A DNA stretch of 64,000 nucleotides, from assembly GCF_900100875.1 (NCBI RefSeq), contig NZ_FNKQ01000002.1, positions 1-64,000 on the forward strand, in the 5' to 3' direction. This stretch comes from Halopelagius longus. Lineage in GTDB: Archaea; Halobacteriota; Halobacteria; Halobacteriales; Haloferacaceae. Made by a program: the position numbers and the translations under genes. This document shows, piece after piece, positions 1-44,337 of the stretch; positions within the stretch are counted from its first letter, which is position 1, and every line of letters begins with the position of its first letter. The notes under the pieces are model-generated. The model did not search any database. It saw only the letters and a program-made list of their open reading frames with translations, and was not told the DNA's origin.

Positions 1-153
1 GAAGTATTGGCCTCAGTTTCCCGAGGATATCCTTCTCTGCAGGGTAGCTTGACCACGTGTTACTGAGCTATTTGCCGCGAGTCTGAACTCGCACGACTAG
101 CATGGCTAAATCGGACTCCGATAGCAATGACCTCCGGCAGGATCAACCGGAAT
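1..153 (-). rRNA. 16S ribosomal RNA, 5' end (partial)
   Basis: The minus strand starts with the archaeal 16S 5' sequence ATTCCGGTTGATCCTGCCGG at 153 and continues with the conserved AGCCATGCTAGTCG and AGCTCAGTAACACGTGGTCAAGC blocks. Only about the first 150 nt lie in the window; the gene runs off the left edge. It is transcribed leftward, away from the origin at about 4.3 kb. Confidence 0.97.
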
Positions 154-11505: not shown

Positions 11506-11579
11506 CCGCCCTTAGCTCAGCCTGGTAGAGCAGCCGACTGTAGATCGGCTTGCCCCCCGTTCAAATCGGGGAGGGCGGA
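11506..11579 (+). tRNA. tRNA-Tyr (anticodon GTA)
   Basis: A complete 74-nt cloverleaf: acceptor CCGCCCT/AGGGCGG, D-arm GCTC/GAGC, anticodon stem GCCGA/TCGGC with loop CTGTAGA (anticodon GTA), T-arm CCCCG/CGGGG with loop TTCAAAT, and discriminator A. CCA is not encoded. No intron. The 3' 21 nt plus two flanking bases recur 118 bp downstream. Confidence 0.97.
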
Positions 11580-11699
11580 CTTCTTCGCCTTCACGTACGC
11601 GCGAGCGAAGCGAGCGCCGTGAACGGCGAGGAGCATCCTCCGAGCCAATTTGAGCAGCGAGCGAGTGAGCGAGTGAGTTCAAATCGGGGAGGGCGGACT
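11559..11699 (+). repeat. tRNA-Tyr tail cassette: duplicated 3' end
   Basis: A 23-bp exact direct repeat, starting GTTCAAATCGGGG and ending GGGCGGACT, occurs at 11559-11581 (inside and just past the tRNA) and at 11677-11699. Between them are GCGAGCGAAGCGAGC (11601-11615), a CGCCGT-GA-ACGGCG hairpin, and CCAATTTGAGC (11645-11655), a degenerate inverted copy of the T-loop (9 of 11). No ORF or integrase lies inside. The layout parallels the one after tRNA-Lys. Confidence 0.8.
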
Positions 11700-15051: not shown

Positions 15052-15807
15052 ATGACCGGACACGACGCACCCGACGAGACCGAATCGACCGACAACGGCG
15101 CCGCCCCGGACGGGAGCGACGGAAAGTCGGCCGTCGTCCTCCTCTCCGGCGGGATGGATAGCGCGACGACCGCCTACGAGGCGGCCGCGCGGGGGTACGA
15201 CCTCTACGTCCTGCACACCTCCTACGGCCAGAACACCGAGACGAAGGAGTACGACTGCGCGACGACCCTCGCCGAGGAACTCGACGCCGAGGAGTTCCTC
15301 CGCGTCGAGACGGACCACCTCTCCCGCATCGGCGCGTCGAGTCTCACGGACGACTCGATGGCGGTCGAGGACGCGGACACCGAAAGCGAGGAGATTCCCA
15401 CCTCGTACGTCCCGTTCCGGAACGCGAACCTGCTTTCGATGGCCGTCTCCTACGCCGAGGCCAACGACTGCGACGCCGTCTTCGTCGGCGCGCACTCCGA
15501 GGACTACGCGGGCTACCCCGACTGCCGCCCCGAGTTCTTCGAGGCGTTCGAGGCGATGGTCGAGACGGGGACGAAACCGGAGACGGACATCGCGATAGAG
15601 GTGCCGTTCGTCACCGACTCGAAGACGGACATCGTCCGCCGCGGCGTCGAACTGGACGTGCCCTTCGAATCTACGTGGTCCTGCTACCGCGCCGAGGAAC
15701 CCGCCTGCGGGACCTGCGACTCCTGCGTCTACCGCGTGGAGGCGTTCCGGAACGTCGGCCGCGAGGACCCCATCCCCTACGCCGAACGACCGCCCCGCGC
15801 CGACTGA
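15052..15807 (+). CDS. queC: 7-cyano-7-deazaguanine synthase QueC
   Basis: ATP-dependent enzyme that turns 7-carboxy-7-deazaguanine and ammonia into preQ0. The 251-aa protein has an N-terminal PP-loop LLSGGMDSATT (about 28-38) and a C-terminal zinc site in CYRAEEPACGTCDSCVYR. A ~20-residue acidic N-terminal tail is typical of halophiles. The gene starts 28 bp after queE and is the last gene of this operon. Confidence 0.95.
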   Translation: MTGHDAPDETESTDNGAAPDGSDGKSAVVLLSGGMDSATTAYEAAARGYDLYVLHTSYGQNTETKEYDCATTLAEELDAEEFLRVETDHLSRIGASSLTDDSMAVEDADTESEEIPTSYVPFRNANLLSMAVSYAEANDCDAVFVGAHSEDYAGYPDCRPEFFEAFEAMVETGTKPETDIAIEVPFVTDSKTDIVRRGVELDVPFESTWSCYRAEEPACGTCDSCVYRVEAFRNVGREDPIPYAERPPRAD

Positions 15808-43937: not shown

Positions 43938-44011
43938 GGGCCGGTAGCTCAGTTAGGTAGAGCGTCTGACTCTTAATCAGACGGTCGGGGGTTCAACTCC
44001 CTCCCGGCCCG
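43938..44011 (+). tRNA. tRNA-Lys (anticodon CTT)
   Basis: A 74-nt cloverleaf: acceptor GGGCCGG/CCGGCCC, D-arm GCTC/GAGC, anticodon stem TCTGA/TCAGA with loop CTCTTAA (CTT at 43972-43974), T-arm GGGGG..CTCCC with loop TTCAACT, and discriminator G. CCA is not encoded. The 3' end is duplicated 106 bp downstream. Confidence 0.97.
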
Positions 44012-44118
44012 TACGTAGACCGGCGAGCGACAGCGAGCAGTGTCGAGGCGCGGAGGGGGGAGTCGAACCAGACGAGACGAAGCGAGTCTCGGCGCGGTTC
44101 AACTCCCTCCCGGCCCGT
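43990..44118 (+). repeat. tRNA-Lys tail cassette: duplicated 3' end
   Basis: A 23-bp exact direct repeat (GGTTCAACTCCC...CCGGCCCGT) lies at 43990-44012 and 44096-44118. The spacer has GCGAGCGACAGCGAGC (44023-44038), an inverted degenerate T-arm copy at 44052-44069 (13 of the first 15 bases match), and an inner hairpin CGAGAC-7 nt-GTCTCG just before the second copy. No ORF lies inside. It has the same order of parts as the cassette after tRNA-Tyr. Confidence 0.8.
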
Positions 44119-44337
44119 TTCCGTTCGTTCGAGAGCGAAGTCGTCTCCTGTCTCTCTCGTCACCCCGGCGAACGCGGAGCGTCCGCCGCGCCGATGCACA
44201 CCGCGTTTCCAGTAAAAACCGCAAGGCGGCGGTCCGTCGGGAACGACATTCCCCCGGCGTCACCCGCCGCGTCGAGACTCTCACCGCTTCCGACAGTTTC
44301 GACTGGTTTAGGTGTCTCTCCGAACGAGAGGGAGGAA
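44119..44337. other. Non-coding stretch holding an isolated ORB-like motif
   Basis: About 220 bp without a gene. The only notable motif is at 44197-44217, which matches the reverse ORB repeats of the origin at 18 of 21 positions (CACACCGCGTTTCCAGTAAA against CACACCGGGTTTCCGGTGAA, last base shared). A TATA-like GGTTTAGG at about 44315 belongs to the next gene. Confidence 0.5.

Follow-up and report, generated by a model that had tools for sequence, protein, structure and literature searches.

The tRNA-Lys(CTT) gene of the haloarchaeon Halopelagius longus is followed by a second copy of its own 3' tail, and the feature is best read as one unit of an undescribed family of tRNA-tail cassettes whose mobilising machinery we infer. 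With a probability of about two in three, these cassettes are haloarchaea-specific, gene-less, and gained and lost by recombination with duplication of the tail, after which they drift. Full-text literature searches turned up no description of such a family, an absence that is not proof. The DNA analysed, called the window below, is a stretch of 64,000 nucleotides (contig NZ_FNKQ01000002.1, positions 1 to 64,000). The parts of the tRNA-Lys unit are:

43938 to 44011, plus strand: tRNA-Lys(CTT), host gene of the unit (ARAGORN; Rfam RF00005, 71.9 bits)
43991 to 44011, plus strand: X1, the duplicated tail, tRNA positions 53-73 (repeat search; family-wide boundary 52/53 to 73)
44012 to 44058, plus strand: module A, a hairpin with the sheared-GA/GNNA tip GCGAGCGACAGCGAGC at 44023-44038 (unit dissection; tip statistics)
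44059 to 44067, plus strand: x', GGAGTCGAA, antisense of the T-loop and T-stem 3' strand of tRNA-Lys (dissection; family-wide own-tRNA specificity)
44068 to 44095, plus strand: module B, hairpin CCAGACGAGACGAAGCGAGTCTCGGCGC (unit dissection)
44096 to 44118, plus strand: X2, the second tail, identical to tRNA positions 52-73 plus one T (repeat search)

A sequence-only reading of this DNA had described a 23-bp tail copy, an inverted T-arm copy in the spacer and a nested hairpin, which together would fold into a large compound hairpin. The copy, GGTTCAACTCCCTCCCGGCCCGT, is indeed exact at 43990-44012 and 44096-44118 with a spacing of 106 bp, and none of 100 shuffles produced one by chance, even when 3 mismatches were tolerated. 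The inverted copy, GGAGGGGGGAGTCGAACC, lies at 44052-44069, and the CGAGAC and GTCTCG arms of the nested hairpin at 44073-44078 and 44086-44091. The folded single strand matters, since the compound hairpin is real and its tips covary. The RNA of 44012-44121 has a predicted fold of -52.8 kcal/mol (z = -2.9), and 2 of 200 shuffles did as well. The earlier placement of these parts was correct; what it missed is that X spans positions 52/53-73, that x' is antisense to positions 54-65 only, and that the pattern is genome-wide. An Rfam scan of the window returned tRNA and SSU rRNA and no other family at gathering score, and the unit alone gave miRNA matches only, far under gathering. Window 1-153 contains the 5' portion of a 16S rRNA gene, on the minus strand.

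The suggestion that another tRNA gene has the same kind of tail duplication was also correct. The tail of tRNA-Tyr in the window is copied exactly at 11677-11698, and its unit has the same parts:

11506 to 11580, plus strand: tRNA-Tyr(GTA), the second unit-bearing tRNA of the window (ARAGORN; the called end is one base past the discriminator)
11580 to 11676, plus strand: A, x' and B of the tRNA-Tyr unit, with GCGAGCGAAGCGAGC inside at 11601-11615
11677 to 11697, plus strand: X2 of tRNA-Tyr, followed by the flank CTCGTTTTTCGCGCCGAC

Such copies are widespread within genomes. Three nearly complete tRNA sets were counted. In the window's genome, 24 of 45 tRNA genes have a copy of their own tail (the last ~21 nt) shortly downstream, up to three consecutively; the figures are 18/43 in a congener and 20/43 in a genome of another family. 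Swapped tails match the downstream sequence far more poorly than the own tail, and shuffled downstream sequence matched in 2 of 195 cases. A strict pattern, GTTCRANTC-GANTYGAANC-GTTCRANTC with spacing limits, was then sought across the phylum. Among Halobacteria, 197 of 292 genomes and 63 of 77 genera have it; the pattern can also catch tandem different tRNAs, such as viral clusters, but in the haloarchaeal units that were read the tails match. It occurs in 0 of about 240 genomes of the same phylum outside Halobacteria, and the control, the pattern read backwards, gave zero throughout. The shuffles, the own-genome tRNA survey and the class-wide pattern rule out a single-locus oddity or chance. 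Viral carriage was also rejected: in IMG/VR the unit pattern hit nothing but ordinary clusters of tRNA genes whose tails differ, and a 26-bp B core (see below) is absent from that database. One viral contig (L306, IMGVR_UViG_3300049575_000043) contains two B1-like hairpins, GGGAGCGAACGAAGTGAGCGACCG, around 1988-2011 and no tRNA. Elsewhere, a small contig bears about ten densely clustered tRNA genes (G160:C3:161109-162673), resembling the tRNA arrays of plasmids or viruses.

Across the family the unit has a constant order: tRNA tail X1, hairpin A, x', hairpin B, X2. X2 runs from tRNA position 52/53 through the discriminator, 73, and nothing beyond; identity to the tRNA is 0.96-1.00 at positions 53-73 and at background on either side. 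The copy is specific to its host, e.g., at variable position 64 it matches its own tRNA at 0.99 vs 0.31 for the tails of other tRNAs. The x' segment is an antisense copy of positions 54-65 of the own tRNA and shows the same specificity (0.94 vs 0.54 at position 57, 0.96 vs 0.67 at position 59; Wilcoxon 3e-24). Its match falls with distance from hairpin B, from 0.94-0.99 at positions 55-59 to 0.69 at 63 and background by 66-67. The spacers between X1 and X2, 42-187 bp, are too short for genes. A variant at tRNA-Ala, Gly-CCC and Asp (L014, L006, L237) copies the acceptor part alone, about positions 61-73, and its hairpin tip, CTCGCTTCGCTCG, is reversed in orientation.

Hairpins A and B end in a common tip, N-C-(GNA or GNNA)-G-N, with GA flanking on both sides. 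In 201 spacers, 179 such tips lie on the tRNA-sense strand, compared to 3 on the opposite strand and 1.2 in shuffled sequence. The inner pair of the tip is Watson-Crick in 163 of 179 tips vs 85.5 expected from re-dealt pairs, a strong covariation. Selection or templated correction therefore acts, or has acted, on a strand that is folded; a functional RNA would give the same result. Loops of the GNA or GNNA type with flanking GA are extraordinarily stable DNA mini-hairpins (PMC4686876). The loops of the units are GNA or GN-C-A, and GNRA tetraloops are rare; the balance of rare GNRA and abundant GNA triloops leans toward DNA rather than RNA as the folded strand. DNA energy folds do not decide the matter, the two window units giving unexceptional z scores of -1.4 and -0.3, and nor does the comparison of G.T with A.C pairs in the x' stem, given below. 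The tip motif GCGARCGNAGYGAGC is also seen in intergenic hairpins of the window's genome far from tRNAs (L337, L339, L344, L347, L348, L349), and haloarchaeal hairpins in general may end in this way. Some of these non-tRNA hairpins precede TTTTTGGTCCAG.

The sequence-only reading had proposed a role in RNA: a transcript reading through the tRNA would fold, and its pseudo-tail might compete for RNase Z or the CCA-adding enzyme, or protect the 3' end. The RNA fold score given above, and the confinement of covarying tips to the sense strand, are in its favor. So are RNA-seq-verified intergenic small RNAs of Haloferax mediterranei, several of 78-147 nt, which flank tRNA genes (PMC5852579, Table 2). 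They are unmatched to units but may be unit transcripts. However, the copy is missing at orthologous tRNAs of sister species, and about half of the tRNAs have no unit. Where X2 is mutated, x' fits X1 better in 39 units and X2 in 12; thus, compensating changes do not restore the x'/X2 stem. This uncompensated decay speaks against a selected RNase Z/CCA decoy. Furthermore, the preference for G.T over A.C in the x' stem is weak (71/758 vs 60/1079), and the loops are not mostly GNRA. A functional trailer is therefore unlikely. Conservation in relatives, on which that reading would depend, holds for the class of structure, which is kept across Halobacteria, but not for the individual copy. Individual units are dispensable in evolution, and there is no sign that any single one is needed.

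Turnover can be followed directly. Because tRNA-Lys(CTT) adjoins a TrkA-N/DHH gene throughout haloarchaea, one locus can be traced in named species. In Haloferax, H. gibbonsii has a unit at this tRNA and H. prahovense has none, its flank joined directly to X; in Halobellus species the number of tail copies is 0, 1 or 2. Another empty site is found at the tRNA-Tyr of the sister species, where the CTCGTTTTTCGCGCCGAC flank seen in the window joins X directly, and another at a second tRNA-Tyr. Between the window's genome and its congener, unit content varies freely at tRNAs with a conserved upstream flank, and orthologous tRNAs within one genus may have 3 vs 0 units (Ser-GGA) or 0 vs 2 (Leu-TAG). 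Arrays also change. Those of Halegenticoccus and Halorubrum have the distal unit in common and differ in the tRNA-proximal unit, and Halolamina species have units arranged in different order. Of 40 arrays, 17 have a first copy that has decayed less than the last one, and 2 show the opposite (sign test, p = 0.0007). This fits gain at the tRNA-proximal end or stronger conversion there; gene conversion of copies near the tRNA could mimic tRNA-proximal insertion.

The modules themselves are shared between loci. Of 183 units, 40 have a B module with a near-identical counterpart at a different tRNA isotype, against 0 after shuffling; at the same cut-off, no A module of the 183 units is near-identical at a different isotype. 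B hairpins are common to different tRNAs and genera, and the B class of the tRNA-Lys unit is also found in the sister species and in other tRNA-Lys units (L035, L039, L078). One 26-bp B core is present in 75 of 145 genomes (control, 0), and the tRNA tail follows it in nearly all loci read; by hand count, its tip pair is A-T in 19, G-C in 98, A-C in 2 and G-T in 1. What these comparisons establish is that units are inserted or lost, with the tail duplicated, and that B modules are exchanged.

This dispersal bears on an explanation that needs no mobile element, in which units grow in place by replication slippage and template switching at the tRNA inverted repeat, and conversion homogenises X and x'. 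Limited fold-back copying would be expected to give the decay of x' away from B, and x' does fit the resident tRNA. Neighbouring units with exactly identical A but different B (L080, L094, L108) point the same way. On the other hand, dispersal is needed to account for B modules that recur almost unchanged at different tRNAs and, for one core, in 75/145 genomes, and the spread is confined to Halobacteria. Growth in place alone is possible but improbable. The match of x' to the resident tRNA also counts against the preferred reading in its simplest form: movement of a finished cassette from one tRNA to another would hardly produce it, and some of the unit has to be rewritten at the locus.

Haloarchaeal elements integrate in tRNA 3' ends (PMC8371274, PMC3119063), and a unit could be the scar of such an ordinary element, with X1 and X2 as attL and attR and the cargo deleted. 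The window's genome has an integrase-bearing island of ~28 kb with two tyrosine recombinases at tRNA-Arg(CCG) (G000:C1:40627-68564, about 40.7-68.5 kb; L357, L358). Large elements thus still target X1. At the right end of this island, a 13-bp core, CCCGTCGGGTCCG, stands directly before A-x'-B-X2, and the unit is displaced 28 kb downstream. The island used this separate core and sits between X1 and a complete unit; hence, the unit is independent of the island and predates it. X2 as attR of a deleted island was rejected as the general case on this ground. Random decay is not expected to give conserved A and B hairpins, x' and regular 100-bp arrays in 63/77 genera, and no cargo-bearing intermediate was found among the sampled loci. 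The scar explanation is accordingly quite unlikely. That the unit is the end of a gene-bearing element was likewise rejected, no gene-bearing cassette being present in the sampled loci. At one tRNA-Tyr (L359, G097:C1:900000-918300; tRNA at 15076, second full tail at about 17752) the tails are separated by an insert of ~2.6 kb that contains an integrase-like gene and lies upstream of a B-module unit. Compared to attL/attR duplications (PMC8371274), the units have the same direct repeat of a tRNA 3' end flanking an insert and the same empty sites, but their repeats stand about 100 bp apart and enclose none of the genes, typically including an integrase, that such elements carry; the units also have their own hairpins and x', and form tandem arrays, at about half of all tRNA genes.

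Three classes of enzyme were searched for in six unit-bearing genomes. Tyrosine recombinases are present in all six (general Phage_integrase, 4-11 per genome). The Y1 transposase is missing (0) from G000 and G001, the two genomes from the window's genus, whose unit content is not the same, and numbers 1-3 in the four others. Cas1 is 0 in four of the six, G000 and G001 included. These results weigh on two further explanations. In one, the units are IS200/IS605-type hairpin elements, PATE- or REP-like, moved by a Y1 transposase. Their tiny size, strand bias and single-strand hairpins fit, and PATEs are common in Haloquadratum (PMC3119063). The lack of the enzyme in two genomes that differ in units largely refutes it as the sole mover, barring recent loss, and makes this explanation very unlikely. 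In the other, Cas1 would insert units in CRISPR- or casposon-like fashion, duplicating the repeat at a leader, here the tRNA. The geometry of the duplicated repeat and the least-decayed tRNA-proximal copy are as such insertion would leave them. For the four genomes without Cas1 it is refuted, and overall it is scarcely credible; the missing Cas1 family integrase also sets the units apart from CRISPR and casposon arrays.

Several other known systems resemble the units in part. Bacterial REP/BIME elements form mosaic arrays of small hairpin modules at the 3' ends of transcribed genes, as the units do; the units, however, are linked to tRNA genes and repeat the end of the host gene in both orientations, sense and antisense, and G000 and G001 lack a RAYT-type (Y1) enzyme. 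Integron attC arrays have variable hairpins of conserved structure, 7-nt core sites and tandem cassettes, the newest at the anchor. Here the likeness lies in variable hairpins of conserved structure, in x' and X as putative core-like sites inverted around hairpin B, in the tandem arrangement and in the presence of tyrosine recombinases (the general Phage_integrase count); the difference is that the units are gene-less and have a 21-nt tRNA repeat vs the 7-nt core. PATEs have near-terminal palindromes and a 4-6 nt target, with no target duplication and no link to tRNA tails (PMC3119063). Both they and the units are very short, gene-less, haloarchaeal and palindromic, and PATE palindromes are active as single-stranded DNA. 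The units have the sense-strand hairpins A and B, which covary and may likewise act as single strands. They differ in duplicating a 21-nt tRNA tail, empty sites having a single X, in containing an antisense T-arm, and in that the Y1 transposase is missing in the two turnover genomes. We place the unit family among the gene-less hairpin elements, although there is a real possibility that it forms a category of its own.

The preferred reading, recombining tRNA-tail cassettes, suggests the following model. A unit would arise by recombination at the T-loop/3' end of a tRNA gene, leaving the tRNA intact and its tail duplicated, and the substrate would be folded single-stranded DNA. The actor may be a tyrosine recombinase, or host break repair with fold-back copying. 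Copying of the resident tail on the folded strand would write x', with which its decay away from B is consistent. Once installed, units would drift, and recombination between X1 and X2 would be sufficient for precise removal. Haloquadratum deletes between ~20-bp direct repeats (PMC3119063). Neither the enzyme nor an excised form nor any transposition event was observed. A broader proposal is tentative, at rather less than even odds: that haloarchaea possess a class-wide system, equipped with recombination machinery of its own, in which gene-less hairpin cassettes are built and exchanged at the T-loop/3' end of tRNA genes via folded single-stranded DNA, with the resident tail written into each in both sense and antisense. 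It would be a new category of tRNA-anchored array guided by structure.

The family has practical consequences for annotation. A copy of a tRNA tail in a haloarchaeal genome need not indicate an integrated virus or plasmid, and small RNAs flanking tRNA genes may be unit read-through. The tip loops match the most stable DNA mini-hairpins (PMC4686876); therefore, single-stranded DNA chemistry at high salt becomes testable at tRNA ends. If the reading is true, about half of the tRNA genes in a whole archaeal class bear a fast-changing, undescribed repeat. Ends of tRNA genes are the commonest landing site of mobile DNA, and the units would then be a natural record of recombination there.
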